From: Spiroplasma chrysopicola DF-1
GTDB taxonomy: Bacteria > Bacillota_I > Bacilli_A > Mycoplasmatales > Mycoplasmataceae
Length of the DNA stretch: 64,000 bases
Direction: 5' to 3'
NCBI RefSeq assembly: GCF_000400935.1
Contig: NC_021280.1
Location: 248,001-312,000 of the forward strand
The notes beneath the pieces are model-generated. The model saw nothing but the letters and a program-made list of their open reading frames with translations. It was not told the DNA's origin and made no database searches. The translations under genes were made by a program, and so were the position numbers. Below are positions 3,052 to 11,806 of this stretch, one piece after another (the first letter of the stretch is position 1; every line of letters starts with the position of its first letter).

Positions 3052-4587
3052 ATGAAAAAATTATTATTAATATCAGGTGCTATCTGTATGGTAACTAGTA
3101 GCTTTGCTGGACAAATCCCAGTCTTTCAGAAAGAATCGTTAGAAACAAAAACCTCTCGGGCAGGGCAGGGAATTTTAAATAATGTTACAGAAAATTTATC
3201 AAATGAAAAAATAAATAATATCTCAGTTTATTTTATTGGCCGTAATGGCGCTTTTATTGCGATTCAAGAGTTATTGTCGGCTTTATTAACAGCTCAAAAT
3301 CCAAATAAGGAAGTTTATTTTTATTTAAGTCCGGGAATTAAAGATAGTGATGCAATTGGGATAATTAATTGATCGGCGATTACAGCGCACTTTCCTAATT
3401 TTCATTTTGGTCGCTCACAAACGCAAGAATATATTACTGATCAAGATTTAAAGGCGGTAAAAGATAAATTACAACCAAACCAGAAAATAGATGTTTACAT
3501 TGAAGATTTTGCATTAGGACAAATTCGTCCCACACAAATGATTAGTGATTTATCAGATTCATGAGCAGTGATAGATTCTATTACCTTTCCAACTGATGGA
3601 GTTGGCCATTTTGTTTTTACTGCCAAAACTCAACAGTATCTTGATCAGTTATCTAGTGCTACAAAAGAATATTACAGTAAAATTTGACAAAATCTTTTTG
3701 CGGGGGCAAAAATAACAGCTGATTATACCAGCAATGATTTAATAGGAGCTAGTCAGTATTTGCCAGCAATTACAAATTTTGGCCAAGGTTTTAACAAAGT
3801 TAATAGTTGAGTTGGAACAGATCAATACTATTTAGAAGGAACAACATCACCACGAGCTTGAAATGAAATTGGGACAGGACTGCACCAAGCTTGAACAGCA
3901 ATGACCCCAGCAACTCAGAATGTTTTTAAAGCAGCTTATAATTTAAATACCTTTGATTTTTCTTATACAATTGATAAAAGAAATATTGTTTATTCGGGTT
4001 CTTTAATGAGTGAATCAACAGCCTTAGCAAATGAAGTGGCAGTAATTGTTAATAATTATAATAAGTTTTACCAAAATGATGGATTAACAAACATTTTGTA
4101 TAAACCCCATCCGCGTGAAAAAGAAAGCAATTTAAATAAGTTAGCACAAACTGTTAAAAAAACCGTTAATGATTATAGTGACTGATTTCATATTGTTCCG
4201 CAAGAAGTGCCAATTGAAGTTTTTCCATTAACAGATACTTTTACAACTGATGTAACTGGGAAAACTAAATTTGGTTATTATATGTTTGGAACATCAACAT
4301 CAGTGCAATCTTTTTATGAAGCCCAAGCAACACCACAAATTATTGAATTTATTTTTCCTACAAGTCAAGATATTACAACAGCCCTTAATTGATATGGTAA
4401 AGATAGTACAGTTCTTGATTTTAGTAAGGTTTTTAATCAAAATATGCCAATTAAACATAACAAGTGAATTATTATTTTATTAACAACCCTAATCCCAACA
4501 ATAGTTATTGTCGCAAGCGGAGTTGGCGGATATTATATTTATCGTCATGTTAAAAAAAGTAAAACAGTTGCAATAAAATCAGAGTAA
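3052..4587 (+). CDS. Surface protein with signal peptide, sialyltransferase-like motifs and C-terminal TM anchor
   Basis: 511 residues with many TGA Trp codons. The first 20 or so residues form a signal peptide without a lipobox cysteine (MVTSSFAGQ). A hydrophobic segment at about 472-497 followed by YRHVKKSK would anchor the C-terminus in the membrane, leaving most of the chain outside. Within the ectodomain, SVYFIGRNG (early strand), VYIEDF (E151, D152), YKPHPR (350-355) and VPIEVF (386-391) occur in the order seen in GT-B sialyltransferases of the GT52/GT80 and polysialyltransferase type, in which an acidic pair acts as base and a lysine-x-His-Pro motif binds the donor. This is recognition by motif only, so the function is an inference. 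The gene stands alone between rnhB and a terminator. Confidence 0.6.
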
Positions 4588-4604
4588 AATATTCTGATTT
4601 TTTT
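4575..4604 (+). terminator. Rho-independent terminator after the surface protein gene
   Basis: AAAATCAGA (4575-4583) pairs with TCTGATTTT (4593-4601) and runs into T residues. It includes the stop codon region of the upstream gene. Confidence 0.8.
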
Positions 4605-4697: not shown

Positions 4698-6356
4698 ATG
4701 AAAAAAATTGTTATTATTGGTGGAGGCGCTGGGGGTGCTGGTGCTGCCGCAAAATGTCGTCGGTTAGATGAAACAGCTCAAATTACTGTTTATGAAAAAT
4801 CAGGGTTTGTGTCTTATTCAAATTGTGGCTTACCATATTATTTTTCCCATAAGATTAAAAACTTTGATAGTTTAATCTTAAATACCCCGGAAGCTTTAAA
4901 AGCAAATTATAATTTCGATGTTTTTGTTAAACATGAAGTATTTGACTTAGATGTTAAAACCAAAACAATCAAGGTGAGAAATTTATTAACAGGAACAGAA
5001 TTTAGTGATAATTATGATGTTTTAATTATTGCGGCTGGGGCACCTGCTTTACGACCAAACATTCCAGGGCTAGCAGAAAGCAATAATGTTTTTTCGTTAA
5101 AAACACCTGATGATATTTTAGCGGTTGATGAATATTTTAAAAACCATGGTGAACCAGAAAATGTTGTCATTGTTGGTGGAGGTTTTATTGGGGTCGAAAT
5201 TGCCGAAAATTTTAAAATTAGAGGAGTTAAAAATGTCACAATTATTGATGCTCAAGATCAATTATTTTTAACCGTTGATAAAGATATTGCGGCTTGAGGG
5301 CATAAAGCCTTATTAGAAAAAGGGATTACCTTAAAATTACAAAAAAGTTTAGCAAGTTTTGCTGATAATGGTAAAACAATTATTTTAGCAGATGGGGAGA
5401 AAATTAAAACGGATTTAACATTTTTAACAATTGGCGTTCGCCCAGAGGTAGAAATTTATCGTCAAAATGGTATTGCAATCGGTCAAACGGGAGGAATAAA
5501 AACAGATAAACACCAGGCAACTAATATTGCCGATATTTATGCAATTGGTGATATTGCTGAAACATTTGATCTTGACGGTAATCCTGTCCGAATTGCTTTA
5601 GCTACTCCGGCTTCTCGTCAAGCAGTTGTTGTTGCTAATCATATTTATCAAATTAAGGATGAATACAAGGGTAGTCAAGGAACAAATGCAATTAGTATTT
5701 TTTCAACAACAATTGCCGCAATTGGTAAAACGGAAAAACAATTGCAAGAGGAAGGAATTAACTATCACAAAGTTGTTGTTGCCAAACAAAATAAATTAGG
5801 GTTACTTGGGGGAGAGTTTATTTGATTTAAACTATTATTTACTAAAGAAGGTTCTATTTTAGGAGCACAAGCAGTTGGCCCAGAAAGCACTGAAAAACGG
5901 ATTACTTATTTAGCAATTGTGATGTATGCCAAACAAACCATCTTTGATTTAGTTGAATATCAAGTCGCCTATAATCCTGTTGTTGATAATTCTTTTGATG
6001 TAATTAATATGGCTGGTCGGGCAGCACGCCTTATTTTATCACAAACTTATCAAATTGCTTATGTCGAAGATGTTGAAACTTTACAAGCACAAGGGTGAAA
6101 AATTTTAGATGTTCGTAAACCAACCGAATTAACAGCAATGGGTCAAATTCCCGGGTCAATTAATATCCCATGAGATCAATTACGTCATCGTATTAGCGAA
6201 TTAAATCCAGCACAAAAATATCTTGTCCATTGTCGTTCAGGAGCACGTTCATATAATGCAACTTTAATTCTACAAGCCCATGGGTTTAAAAATGTTAAAA
6301 ACCTAGCGGGAGGTTATGAATATTGAATGGTATATCAACAATATCATAAGTTTTAA
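4698..6356 (+). CDS. FAD-dependent CoA-disulfide reductase fused to a rhodanese domain
   Basis: 552 residues. The N-terminus GGGAGGAGAAAKC binds FAD, and SNCGLPYY carries the redox-active Cys43 typical of the CoA-disulfide reductase/NADH oxidase group. A second Rossmann motif (IVGGGFIGVEIAE) binds NAD(P)H. After about residue 450 a rhodanese domain follows, with HCRSGARS holding its catalytic Cys512. Family members reduce CoA disulfide or polysulfide and help protect thiols. ATG 4698 is chosen because AAAGGAG (4681-4687) precedes it; an in-frame TTG at 4677 lies ahead of that SD. The substrate cannot be told from sequence, and NADH oxidase is an alternative for the first domain. Confidence 0.85.
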
Positions 6357-6402: not shown

Positions 6403-6430
6403 TTTACAAAAAATATTTTTTTGATAATAT
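6403..6430 (+). promoter_or_regulatory. Promoter of the pyr operon leader
   Basis: TTTACA (6403-6408), 16 bases, then TAATAT (6425-6430). Transcription would start near 6437, only about 15 bases before the leader ATG. The same two hexamers, 17 bases apart, precede the uracil permease leader at 28225-28253. Confidence 0.65.
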
Positions 6431-6451
6431 ATATAATTAAGGTGAAGATAA

Positions 6452-6613
6452 ATGCAAAGATGAAAAAAATCGGAACTAAAAAATCAAAATCAGGTCAAAA
6501 CAGATCGCCTGCTAATGACTAGTTTTATTATTCATCTTTTATTTAATTTATTCTCTCCCAATAGTTTTAAAACTTACTTAATTAATAACAAAATTTGATT
6601 ATTAATTAAGTAA
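6452..6613 (+). CDS. Leader peptide of the pyr operon (53 residues)
   Basis: ATG 6452 follows AAGGTGA (6439-6445) at good spacing and opens a 53-codon frame with TGA read as Trp. It begins Met-Gln-Arg, is lysine-rich at first, then passes through a T-rich stretch (28 of 48 bases between 6521 and 6568 are T) coding Phe, Ile and Leu. The stop TAA 6611-6613 lies inside the 3' arm of a perfect terminator hairpin. A ribosome close behind the polymerase would cover the first arm and stop the hairpin from forming. This is the layout of the enterobacterial pyrBI leader, where UTP shortage slows polymerase in a U-rich tract. I infer a regulatory rather than a functional peptide. Confidence 0.65.
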
Positions 6614-6620
6614 GTTTTTT
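6569..6620 (+). terminator. Attenuator hairpin in the pyr leader
   Basis: The arm at 6569-6588 (AAAACTTACTTAATTAATAA) is the exact reverse complement of 6599-6618, giving a 20-bp stem with a 10-base loop and ending in T residues. It lies between the pyr promoter and pyrB, so it must be bypassed for operon expression. I do not recognise the PyrR binding loop of Bacillus pyr leaders upstream of it. Confidence 0.85.
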
Positions 6621-6654
6621 TATGCCATTTAATTGCTAGAAAGAAGGAACAAAA

Positions 6655-7533
6655 ATGAAAAAGAGTTTATTTAATTTAGATGACTGACAAGAAGAAGATA
6701 TTAATGTCTTGTTAACAAGCGCCTTAGAGTTTAAAAATAAAGAGAAACAAATTGATTATCAGCAAAATAAAATTGTCGCTAATTTATTTTTTGAACCATC
6801 AACACGAACACATTATTCATTTGTTGTTGCAGCCCACAAATTAGGGTGTAAAACATTAAATTTTAATGAAAGTTTTAGTGCCACAAAAAAAGGGGAAAGT
6901 TTGTATGATACAATAAAGACTTTTGAAGCATTAGGTGTAGATGCCATTATTATTCGCCATCATCAGAACAATTATTACGAACAATTAGCAACAAAAATAT
7001 CAACCCCAATTATTAATGGTGGGGATGGTAGTGGTAATCATCCCACCCAAAGTTTATTAGACTTATTAACAATTAAAGAACATTTTAATCAGTTTGAGGG
7101 GTTAAGCATTATGATTGTTGGAGATATCAAGAACTCACGTGTTGCCAAAACAAACATTCAAATTATGCAAAAATTAGGGATGAATGTTTATGTCACAGGA
7201 ATCAAAGAATTACAAATCCCTAATGTTCAACAAATTGATTTTAAAACAGGATTAGCCAAAATGGATGTCGTGATGATATTACGCTATCAATTTGAACGCT
7301 TTGAGGATAATGAAAAATACCATCTTGCTTATTTACAAAATTATAAATTAACTTTACCCCTTGTGGCAACAATGAAACCAACAGCGATAATTATGCACCC
7401 AGCCCCCTTTAATCGAGGCATTGAAATTGATGATGAAGTTGTAGAATGTTCGCGCTCGAAAATCTTTGCCCAAATGTCAAATGGTGTTTTTATTCGTATG
7501 GCTTTAATTAATAATGCTTTAGAGGGTCAGTAA
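6655..7533 (+). CDS. pyrB: Aspartate carbamoyltransferase catalytic subunit
   Basis: 292 residues. PyrB joins carbamoyl phosphate and aspartate to make carbamoyl aspartate. FEPSTRTHYSF (S49-T52 in the phosphate loop), GDGSGNHPTQ and MHPAPFNRG are family signatures. ATG 6655 has AAGAAGGA upstream; a shorter start would lose the N-terminal helix. One TGA Trp codon lies near the start. It heads a tightly packed operon and there is no pyrI regulatory subunit gene beside it, as is usual for this class in low-GC bacteria. Confidence 0.96.
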
Positions 7534-7534
7534 A

Positions 7535-8800
7535 ATGATCTACACTTTCAGTCACGGACAGATTTATTACCAGCAAGAATTTATTAACCAAAATATTACA
7601 ATTGAAAACAATAAAATTATTAATATTGGCCCTGAAATTATTGGGACCGAAATTAAATTACCTCCATCAGCAATTATTGTTCCCAGTTTTATTGATTTAC
7701 ATGCCCATTTCCGCGAACCAGGCCAAACAACAAAAGAAGATTTCGTGACAGGTTCCTTGAGTGCCTTATATGGGGGGTATCAAACAGTTTGTTTGATGGC
7801 TAATACAATTCCAACAATTGATAATTTAAAACTTTTAAAAGCTTTATTAACAAAAACCGTTTTATTACCAATTAATATTCAGTTTTTTGCCGCGATTACA
7901 AAGAATTTAGCGGGAATAGTACCAGCCCCTTGAAATGAATTAAAAGATTATGTAATTGGTTTTAGTGATGATGGCAATTATTTGGTGAATGAAGAAATTT
8001 TATTGGCTGTTTTAGAGTATGCAGATAAAGAGAAAAAGTTAGTATCGTTGCATGTTGATAGTCGTCAAAAACTATTAAAAGAAAAAGTTATCTTAAATAA
8101 GCGGAGCGCAAAAAAGTTTCATTTAAAGGGTGTTAATTGAAGATACGAAGGGGAACCCTTAGCAAGAGATTTACGATTGATTAATAAGAAGGGTTTGGGA
8201 TATCACTTGTGTCATATCTCAACAGCAAAAAGTGTTAAATTAGTACGTAAATATAAAAAGAAAAACCCCAAATTATCTTGTGAGGTTACACCCCATCATT
8301 TAACGCTTTCAATTAAAGATATCAAAAATAATAATGGCAATTATATGATGAATCCGCCCCTTAATTTAAAAAAAGATCAGCGCAGTTTAATTAGGGGATT
8401 AAATGAAGGGGTTATTGATGTGATTGCCACTGATCATGCTCCCCATTTACCAGTTGAAAAAGATTCTTTTGCAACAGGAGTAATGGGAGTAATTGGCTTA
8501 CAATTAACATTCCCAGTTTTATATACAAAATTAGTCCGCCCAAAATTAGTTGACTTAGCAACAATAATTGCTGCTTTAACAGTTAATCCCCAAAAATTAA
8601 TTAATCATGATCCAGTGGAACTAGAGGTTAATCAAAAAGCTAATTTTACAATTATTGATTTAGCCCTTAATAAAATTGTCACATCAACTCTCTTAAAATC
8701 AAAAGGAAAAAATACTCCTTTTATTGGTGAAAAATTAGTTGGTTGGCCAATAATTAATGTTTATAACGGTAATATTCACTATTTAACGGAGGATGAATAA
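7535..8800 (+). CDS. pyrC: Dihydroorotase
   Basis: 421 residues. The zinc-binding DLHAHFREPG (H56, H58), CHISTAKS and the later DHAPH (D300) identify a type I dihydroorotase, which closes carbamoyl aspartate to dihydroorotate. MANTIPTID and the terminal amidohydrolase strands also fit. Two TGA codons are read as Trp. The start is one base after the pyrB stop. Confidence 0.95.
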
Positions 8801-8801
8801 A

Positions 8802-9581
8802 ATGGTAAAACAGGTTGAAGAAAAAGTAGTTTTATTAGCAAATCAACAATTAAGTGGTGACTTATGATTGGCAACTTTTAAAGCCCCAATCATAAGTCAA
8901 TTAGCCGAACCGGGTCAGTTTGTTTTAATTGAACCTGCTGCACAGTTTTTCTTAAAACGCCCATTTAGTTTTTTTGATATTAATAAAACCGAACAGACAG
9001 TGCAGATTTATTATCAAAGCAAAGGTTTAGGAACATGATACATGGCCCAGCAGTGAAAAATTGGTCAAATTGTGACAATGCAAGGCCCCCATGGTCAAGG
9101 TTTTCAAATTGATGAGATAAATGATATTTTGATTGTTGCTGGGGGAATTGGGATTGCCCCAATGAAGTGTTTAATTGATCAGTTAGAAAAAACTGAGAAA
9201 AAGTATCAAGTAATTTTTGGGGGTCAAAACCAAGCAGCATTAACAGTTGCAGCAATGTTTTCTCAATTGCAAAAATTAATATTAGTAACTGATGATGGTT
9301 CAATTGGAAAGCAACAAAATGTAATTGAAGCTTTAAAAGAATATTTACAACAACACAAGCCAAAGGTGATTATTGGTTGTGGGCCTAGTGTTGTTTTAAA
9401 TCAAATTGCAAAGTTGGGAGAACAAAATAATATTTCAACCCAATTATCTTATGAAAGTAGAATGGGTTGTGGGGTTGGGGCTTGTATGGGCTGTACGATT
9501 ATCAAAGATAATACTAGTTATAAACTTTGTATTGATGGCCCGGTCATCATTAATAAGTACATAGAACAGGAGGGTGAATAA
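8802..9581 (+). CDS. pyrK: Dihydroorotate dehydrogenase electron transfer subunit
   Basis: 259 residues. RPFSFFD (from R53) is the FAD-binding motif of the ferredoxin reductase fold, GGIGIAPM binds NAD, and C223, C228, C231 and C243 (CGVGACMGC and a later KLC) hold the 2Fe-2S cluster. PyrK passes electrons from the class 1B PyrD to NAD. It is encoded directly before pyrD, one base after pyrC. Confidence 0.95.
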
Positions 9582-10508
9582 ATGTTAACAGTTAATTTTT
9601 TGGGATTTAAGTTAAATTGTCCCTTAACAACAGCCAGTGGAACATTTGGTTATGGGGAATGTTATCAAGATTTTTTTGATGTTAATGAATTAGGAATCTT
9701 AACAACAAAAGGGATTACTTTAGAACCTCGAAGTGGTAATCCCCAACCCCGTTTAGCCGAAGTTACGGGTGGGATTATTAATGCGATTGGATTAGAAAAT
9801 TCTGGTTTTGATCAATTTGTTAGCGACATTGTTCCAACATTTAAAGCTTTTAAAATCCCGGTTATGGTTAATTTAAATGGTAAAACAATTGAAGAGTATC
9901 AAACTTTAGCGGCTGCAATTAATAAGATTAAGGTCATTGCTTTTGTTGAACTAAATATTTCTTGTCCAAATGTCAAAGCAGGGGGAATATTATTTGGAAC
10001 GGATTTAGAATTAACGCGTAAAGTTGTTCGTGCTGTTCGTGCTGTTTTACCAGATAAAAAATTAATTGTAAAATTATCCCCAGCTGTTAGTGATATTAAA
10101 AAGTTTGCTTTAATTTGTGAGGAAGAAAAAGCGGATGGGATTAGTTTGATTAACACAATTCCGGCAATGCAAATTAATTACCAAACTGGAAAACCAACCC
10201 TTGGTAATATTATTGGGGGATTAAGTGGGCCATGTATTAAACCCATTGCGGTTCGGATGGTTTATGAAGTTGCTAGTGTTGTTAAAATCCCAATCATTGG
10301 GATTGGGGGAGTTAGCTGTTATGAAGATGTTTTAGAGTTTATGATGGCGGGGGCTAGTGTTGTTGGGATAGGGACAAGCATATTTCGCAGCCCAGAGATG
10401 ATTACAGAAATTAAGAGGAAGTTAAAAGAATATTGCATTGCTAATAATTTAAATAGTATTGAAGAAATAATTGGTTTGGCTCAACCAAGGAGAAAAGATT
10501 ATGAATAA
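9582..10508 (+). CDS. pyrD: Dihydroorotate dehydrogenase, class 1B catalytic subunit
   Basis: 308 residues. TASGTFGYG, GNPQPRLAE, the NISCPN motif with the catalytic cysteine, and GIGGVSCYEDVLEFMMAGA at the phosphate-binding end of the FMN barrel are all present. Class 1B enzymes use NAD through PyrK, encoded just upstream. The ATG follows the pyrK stop directly, and the 3' end overlaps pyrF by eight bases. Confidence 0.96.
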   Translation: MLTVNFLGFKLNCPLTTASGTFGYGECYQDFFDVNELGILTTKGITLEPRSGNPQPRLAEVTGGIINAIGLENSGFDQFVSDIVPTFKAFKIPVMVNLNGKTIEEYQTLAAAINKIKVIAFVELNISCPNVKAGGILFGTDLELTRKVVRAVRAVLPDKKLIVKLSPAVSDIKKFALICEEEKADGISLINTIPAMQINYQTGKPTLGNIIGGLSGPCIKPIAVRMVYEVASVVKIPIIGIGGVSCYEDVLEFMMAGASVVGIGTSIFRSPEMITEIKRKLKEYCIANNLNSIEEIIGLAQPRRKDYE

Positions 10509-11205
10509 AATAATTATTGCTTGTGATTTTAATAGTCGTCAACAATTAATGACTTTTTTAGATAAGTTTCCCCCAAAACCGTTGTTTTTAAAATTAGGAA
10601 TGGAGTTAATTTATGGAATTGGTTTTGAAATTATTAATGAATTAAAAAAAGCAGGTCATCAAATTTTTCTGGATTTAAAATTACATGATATTCCAATCAC
10701 AATTCATAAAGCGCTTATTGCTTTAAACCAATATCAAGTTGACTTTTTGACAATTCATTTAACAAGTGGGCGACAAGCTTTGGAGAAGGCCCAAGAAATT
10801 AGTAAATCAACAGGAACAAAATTATTAGGAGTAACTGTTTTAACGAGTTTGGATGATGAGGATTTACAAGAAATATTTGGTTGCCAAACTTTAACAAGTG
10901 AGCAGCTAGTAATGAATTTAGCTAGTTTAGCTGTTGAATATGATTTTTATGGAGTTATTTGTTCGCCCCATGAAGTACAAATGATTAAAAGAACATATCA
11001 CCAGTTAAAAACAATAACACCGGGGATTCAAATGAGAGGACAAGAAACTGATCAAAAACGAACAACAACTGTTAAAGCAACACAGCAATTAGGGGCAGAT
11101 TATTTAGTTGTTGGTCGGGCAATTACTTTAGCTGATAATCCTTATCAAGTTTATCAAGAAATGACAGCTCAGTTTTTAGAAAAAGAGAGGGTAGAAAATG
11201 AATAA
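10501..11205 (+). CDS. pyrF: Orotidine 5'-phosphate decarboxylase
   Basis: 234 residues. DLKLHDIP (D58, K60, D63) is the catalytic charge network that decarboxylates OMP to UMP, and TPGIQMRG and VVGRAIT bind phosphate. ATG 10501 lies within the last codons of pyrD, with AAGGAGA ahead of it. An in-frame GTG ten codons earlier is less likely. Confidence 0.95.
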   Translation: MNKIIIACDFNSRQQLMTFLDKFPPKPLFLKLGMELIYGIGFEIINELKKAGHQIFLDLKLHDIPITIHKALIALNQYQVDFLTIHLTSGRQALEKAQEISKSTGTKLLGVTVLTSLDDEDLQEIFGCQTLTSEQLVMNLASLAVEYDFYGVICSPHEVQMIKRTYHQLKTITPGIQMRGQETDQKRTTTVKATQQLGADYLVVGRAITLADNPYQVYQEMTAQFLEKERVENE

Positions 11206-11806
11206 AATTTTAGGAGAATTAATTAAAATAAAAGCAATTAGTATTAATACTAACCAGTTATATACTTGAGCCTCAGGGATTAAGTCACCAATTTATATTG
11301 ATAATCGCTTAATAATGGGATATCCGGATTTACGATGAAAAATTAGTCAGTCTTTCCAGCAATTAATTAATAAGCATTTTAAAGCTGATGAAATTAAGGT
11401 TATTTTTGGAACAGCAACAGCAGGAATTGCGCATGCCGCTTTTTTATCCCATTTATTACAGTTGCCATTAGGTTATGTTCGTAGTGCAAAAAAAGATCAT
11501 GGTAAGGAAAATCAAATTGAAGGGGTTTATCAAGTCGGCCAAAAAGGGCTTGTTATTGAAGATTTGATTTCAACAGGTGGTTCAGTAATTGGTGTTGTTA
11601 AAGCCTTACAACAAGCGGGCATAGAAGTGGTGGGGGTTTTAGCTATTTTTAGTTATCAGTTAAATAAAGCGAAAGATTCATTTGCTGAATTAGGAATCCC
11701 ATTATATACCTTAACTAATTTTGAACAATTAATAAAAGATGATCAATTACTGACTTTTTCGGAGCAAAAAGTATTAGCAGAATTTCATCATTTTTTGAAT
11801 CAATAA
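11198..11806 (+). CDS. pyrE: Orotate phosphoribosyltransferase
   Basis: 202 residues. GIKSPIYIDNR near the N-terminus and the PRPP loop EDLISTGGS (from E121) define the enzyme that makes OMP from orotate and PRPP. Two TGA Trp codons near the start hide the true beginning under the standard code. It overlaps pyrF by eight bases and closes the operon. No carA or carB is in the cluster, so carbamoyl phosphate must come from elsewhere, for example arginine catabolism. Confidence 0.94.

Follow-up and report, generated by a model that had tools for sequence, protein, structure and literature searches.

The window is a 64 kb stretch of the genome of Spiroplasma chrysopicola DF-1 (1,123,322 bp, 99.9% complete) and carries a pyr operon on the forward strand. 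The first gene of the operon is pyrB, which encodes aspartate carbamoyltransferase (6655–7533; NF002032 and TIGR00670 over cut-off). It is followed by pyrC for dihydroorotase (7535–8800; TIGR00857 over cut-off), pyrK for the electron transfer subunit of dihydroorotate dehydrogenase (8802–9581; best models below their cut-offs), pyrD for dihydroorotate dehydrogenase (9582–10508; NF005574 and TIGR01037 over cut-off), pyrF for orotidine-5′-phosphate decarboxylase (10501–11205; NF001273 over cut-off) and pyrE for orotate phosphoribosyltransferase (11198–11806; TIGR00336 over cut-off). The upstream neighbour is a CoA-disulfide-reductase-like gene that ends at position 6356.

Between this gene and pyrB lies a leader on the same strand. 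The initial annotation had described a promoter, a Shine–Dalgarno (SD) sequence, a 53-codon frame and a perfect 20 bp terminator with the stop codon of the frame in its 3′ arm, and each of these elements is indeed found ahead of pyrB. The promoter (6403–6430) consists of a −35 box TTTACA (6403–6408), a 16 nt spacer and a TG-extended −10 box TAATAT (6425–6430). On inspection, the predicted start region ATATATAATTAAGG contains no run of three T. The SD sequence AAGGTGA (6439–6445) precedes a frame (6452–6613) that opens with ATG at 6452, runs for 53 codons under genetic code 4, its TGA codons being read as W, and closes with TAA (6611–6613) in the 3′ arm of the terminator. A U-rich tract (6509–6568, 53% T) is positioned directly 5′ of the hairpin as a candidate region for UTP-sensitive pausing. 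Of the coding windows here, 0.6% reach the T content of these 60 nt. The T-rich part had been assigned to the middle of the frame; it is present, but corresponds to the 3′ half, while the 5′ half is A-rich. The conserved segment TTTATTCTCTCCC (6547–6559) is the predicted pairing partner of the leader SD and AUG (6441–6453).

The intrinsic terminator (6569–6621) has a perfect 20 bp stem, the arms of which (6569–6588 and 6599–6618) are exact reverse complements, a 10 nt loop and a tail of seven T (6615–6621). Its folding energy of −19.6 kcal/mol lies 6.9 standard deviations below that of shuffled sequences (−6.0 ± 2.0 kcal/mol), and only two of its pairs are G–C. The 64 kb contain three perfect inverted repeats of 18 bp or more, this terminator among them. 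Of the 11 terminator-like hairpins in the window, this one alone is entered by a frame that is short, led by an SD and not simply the tail of an ordinary gene. As the T tail and the start of pyrB are only about 34 nt apart, which leaves no room for another promoter, transcription has to read through the terminator in order to reach pyrB.

The promoter, SD, frame, T-rich tract, hairpin and T tail occur in the same order before pyrB in four other genomes of the genus (G023, G017, G022 and G015). Comparison of the leaders shows that the promoter is kept (the −35 box is TTTACA or TTGACA in four congeneric leaders), that the SD is invariant in the five congeneric leaders and that a motif TTTATT.T.TCC is conserved; the T-rich stretch is 52–53% T in all five congeners, a level that about 1% of coding windows attain. 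A sixth leader of this type (type I), from another genus (G056), has the layout in common with these but is unrelated to them in leader and hairpin sequence: the arms of its hairpin are different, as is the phase in which the frame runs into the arm. The distance from the ATG to the hairpin is 104–117 nt in the six leaders. Conservation of the frame in related spiroplasmas had been proposed as a check, and the frame is kept open in five other genomes with a divergent peptide. Frame 0 of all six leaders is free of stops, whereas frames 1 and 2 contain one to three each. Insertions and deletions in the congeneric leaders are of 3 or 6 nt before the hairpin and of 1 or 4 nt behind the frame, and the codon differences outside the hairpin arm are mostly non-synonymous. 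In a simulation of neutral drift to the distances observed, the frame stays open in 8–12% of trials per distant pair. By itself a single open frame is weak evidence, since 11% of shuffles leave it open by chance, and the weight rests on its conservation. From these comparisons we conclude, with moderate strength, that the openness of the leader frame appears to be conserved and its peptide sequence does not. That frame, spacing and T-richness are kept while the peptide diverges fits a role for ribosome transit rather than for the peptide, which matches no Pfam family.

The gene upstream of the leader varies among the genomes and the leader unit remains with pyrB, which indicates that the unit belongs to the latter. 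When the leader was used as a DNA query against 60 genomes of the family, strong matches were obtained at pyrB loci only; scattered weak matches elsewhere are chiefly to the hairpin. No comparable ATG-led, SD-led leader frame was seen in a scan of 80 Firmicute pyrB loci, nor were leader frames seen in the PyrR-less Mycoplasmatales of genus g36, where the start of pyrB is often near the promoter. In G014 (L094/L020) pyrB is decayed and the middle of the leader is lost, such that the start region almost directly joins the hairpin. In G017 (L091) the full leader and pyrB are kept, and transposase-like and other unrelated frames replace pyrC–pyrE in the region examined. CarB, the large subunit of carbamoyl-phosphate synthase, is absent from all genomes with a type I leader (G000, G015, G017, G022, G023 and G056), in each of which pyrB is present; the arginine deiminase route may be the source of carbamoyl phosphate in these CarB-less genomes.

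PyrR is the standard pyr regulator of the low-G+C Gram-positive lineage. Like the leader described here, the PyrR attenuator of Firmicutes (RF00515) places a terminator ahead of the pyr operon, but it is made up of pyrR and its RNA element, both of which are absent here, where a leader frame enters the terminator instead. Using the PyrR model, no pyrR gene is detected in the whole genome that contains the window or in the other leader genomes. The same model exceeds its cut-off in five of the 60 family genomes (the sister spiroplasmas G031, G037, G046, G057 and G058), which act as positive controls for this search, named in the initial annotation as a check. In each of them pyrR directly precedes pyrB and none carries a type-I-like leader. 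The Rfam PyrR element is recognized ahead of pyrR in four of the five, twice above and twice below the curated score. The annotation had found no PyrR-binding loop and none is present: RF00515 has no match in any leader locus, and none at E values up to 5 in the leader of the window. We therefore reject a PyrR element in the leader, given that the same search succeeds in sister genomes. The leader RNA is not matched by any other Rfam family. The 13 pyr-bearing genomes of the family fall into eight with a leader and five with PyrR without overlap, a distribution that would arise by chance with a probability of 1/1287, uncorrected for descent.

The eight include two genomes with a leader of a second type. 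The spiroplasmas G035 and G044 contain pyrD–pyrB–pyrC as well as CarB and lack PyrR. Ahead of pyrD they have a TTGACA-17-TATTAT promoter, and a long hairpin and T tail adjoin the SD of pyrD. The frame in between, which is unrelated to type I, has 105 codons in G035 (L088) and 90 codons in G044 (L089), and in both its stop codon falls within the 3′ arm of a terminator with a long loop. In a tree of pyrB, G035 and G044 are sister to the PyrR-bearing species, while the type I clade forms a separate lineage that adjoins Thomasclavelia. As the tree separates the two, it is probable that leaders of this kind originated on two or more occasions. Upstream of pyrB in Thomasclavelia and Erysipelotrichaceae (L103, L105 and L106) we observe a terminator that is compact and has a competing pairing, GGTATAAT..ATTATACC, upstream of it, and neither a leader frame nor a PyrR motif is seen there; these terminators are possibly a further kind of pyr attenuator.

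The arrangement resembles that of the pyrBI operon, in which low UTP pauses RNA polymerase on a U-demanding leader and the coupled ribosome prevents formation of the terminator hairpin (PMC10135430). The Escherichia coli leader (pyrL) likewise has a short translated frame (predicted here), a U-rich tract and a terminator entered by the frame, all directly before pyrB; the peptide sequence is apparently unimportant in both, and for both folding predicts that the SD and AUG become masked by the U-rich tract. There are also differences. The pyrBI frame passes the hairpin, whereas the Spiroplasma stop codon sits within it. The pyrBI stem is G+C-rich, while that of Spiroplasma is 20 bp long and A+T-rich. 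The pyrBI promoter carries a U-run at the start site (AATTT type) for UTP-dependent slippage, which the predicted Spiroplasma start lacks, and a leader in code 4 ahead of pyrBCKDFE contrasts with pyrBI in E. coli. The two leaders show no homology: that of Spiroplasma does not match PF08052, while the E. coli control does so at 3.1e-34, and descent from the E. coli PyrBI leader is rejected on this basis. In trpL, hisL and the his leader of bacilli the position of the ribosome decides on termination, as we propose here, but these leaders possess a regulatory codon run and a mutually exclusive antiterminator, neither of which is found in the Spiroplasma leader. To our knowledge, control of the pyrBI type has been described only in enterobacteria, and we found no description of it in mollicutes in the open-access literature searched.

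In predicted folds of the RNA between the presumed start and the hairpin, the U-rich tract pairs with the SD and AUG in all six type I leaders. When the transcript is folded as it grows, the probability of the SD being free falls to 0.01–0.04 in the five congeners. Masking begins once the tract has fully emerged, 6–12 nt before the hairpin; before this point the SD is mostly free in four congeners and variably so in the leader of the window. All six leaders show stronger pairing than the average of shuffles that retain the SD and the local composition, but moderately so (joint p of about 0.01 when each lineage is represented by one genome; G056 by itself does not reach significance). There is almost no covariation for this helix, the pairs being invariant or A–U/G–U, and because they are nearly invariant covariation speaks neither for nor against masking. 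In the E. coli K-12 pyrL control (L202), folding predicts pairing of CGGGAGG and AUGG with the CCGUUUUUCUUCCCG pause tract, and the probability of the AUG being free drops from 0.51 to 0.01 as the transcript grows (pairing p of 0.06–0.09); we found no mention of such a masking step in the accessible literature on pyrL. With the predicted masking, which the initial annotation did not include, the likely mechanism is no longer catch-up by the ribosome alone but a race in which ribosome loading is at stake. Tentatively, and with considerable doubt, we suggest that the U-rich pause tract may act as an anti-Shine–Dalgarno sequence whose completion shuts the window for ribosome loading shortly before the terminator is transcribed, so that UTP is read as a race between the polymerase and ribosome loading, that spiroplasmas, having lost or lacked PyrR, may have reached this design twice for pyr operons and that E. 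coli pyrL may include the same unrecognised step.

Taken together, a translation-dependent attenuator of pyrBCKDFE that works like pyrBI and replaces the missing PyrR system is the interpretation that we favour and consider reasonably probable; it is supported by the conservation of the leader, the absence of PyrR and the second leader type in PyrR-less genomes. The initial annotation had proposed pyrBI-like control in place of PyrR. The class of mechanism is well supported and the signal is plausible: from the genes controlled and the T-richness we infer that it would be UTP, and by analogy with pyrBI the pyr genes are probably switched on when UTP is scarce. Leader translation, UTP-sensitive pausing and antitermination would then combine as follows. 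Transcription would start just upstream of the leader SD. With plentiful UTP, RNA polymerase would cross the U-rich tract fast, the tract would pair with the SD and AUG so that no ribosome loads, and the 20 bp hairpin would form and end transcription before pyrB. With scarce UTP, the polymerase would stall in the tract at a time when the SD and AUG remain accessible; a ribosome could load, trail the polymerase into the hairpin region and terminate inside the hairpin, thereby blocking it and allowing pyrB and the downstream genes to be transcribed. Such coupling is plausible since in Mycoplasma pneumoniae NusA links polymerase and ribosome in expressomes (PMC7858274). Two ordinary genes of the window have their stop codon inside their own terminator hairpin (1420–1453 and 4572–4604). 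Genes that end within terminators are a proxy for uncoupled transcription (PMC7858274), and we count these two genes against the model, as we do the hairpin with only two G–C pairs, the moderate SD masking and the near absence of covariation.

The anatomy of frame and hairpin requires coupling only, and a translated-leader attenuator could therefore answer to a signal other than UTP, such as the general capacity for translation, an amino acid or ribosome stress. Gram-positive systems with leader frames are known that respond to stalled ribosomes or to amino acids (PMC2965389). We nevertheless regard this as rather unlikely: the leader has no run of a single codon, the peptide shows no conserved motif beyond the part that the hairpin arm encodes, nothing is seen that could act as an alternative antiterminator when ribosomes stall, and the T-rich tract is conserved ahead of genes that make UTP. 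Amino-acid attenuation and an arrest peptide in particular are rejected, as there is no codon run and the peptide is not conserved. The long-range helix between the SD and the U-tract predicted in six leaders, together with TTTATTCTCTCCC, which could serve as an RNA motif besides its codons, also suits a structured RNA switch that responds to a ligand or protein by way of SD masking and the terminator, translation of the frame being incidental. The lack of an Rfam match, an invariant core too small to hold a ligand pocket and a frame kept open despite sequence divergence make such a switch quite improbable.

Ordinary genes here likewise end in terminators, and the frame could encode a genuine small protein and have a terminator to itself, pyrB being expressed by constitutive leak-through. 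The peptide is however neither conserved nor matched by Pfam, the unit stays with pyrB though the upstream gene differs, and a second, unrelated leader acts alike in other PyrR-less genomes; we find this reading very improbable. That an open frame merely overlaps the terminator of the upstream gene by chance is barely credible. Such a frame is open in 11–26% of shuffles, but a separate promoter and SD intervene, both are kept in five genomes with varied upstream genes, and there is no other promoter before pyrB.

If the translated-leader attenuator is real, a UTP-sensing, ribosome-dependent switch in mollicutes would mean that repression without a repressor has evolved convergently. If the U-tract does mask the leader SD, this would add a simple step to the textbook pyrBI model as well. 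For Bacillus subtilis, uncoupled transcription is reported. The switch, if true, would provide a natural genetic test of transcription–translation coupling in a lineage where this is disputed.
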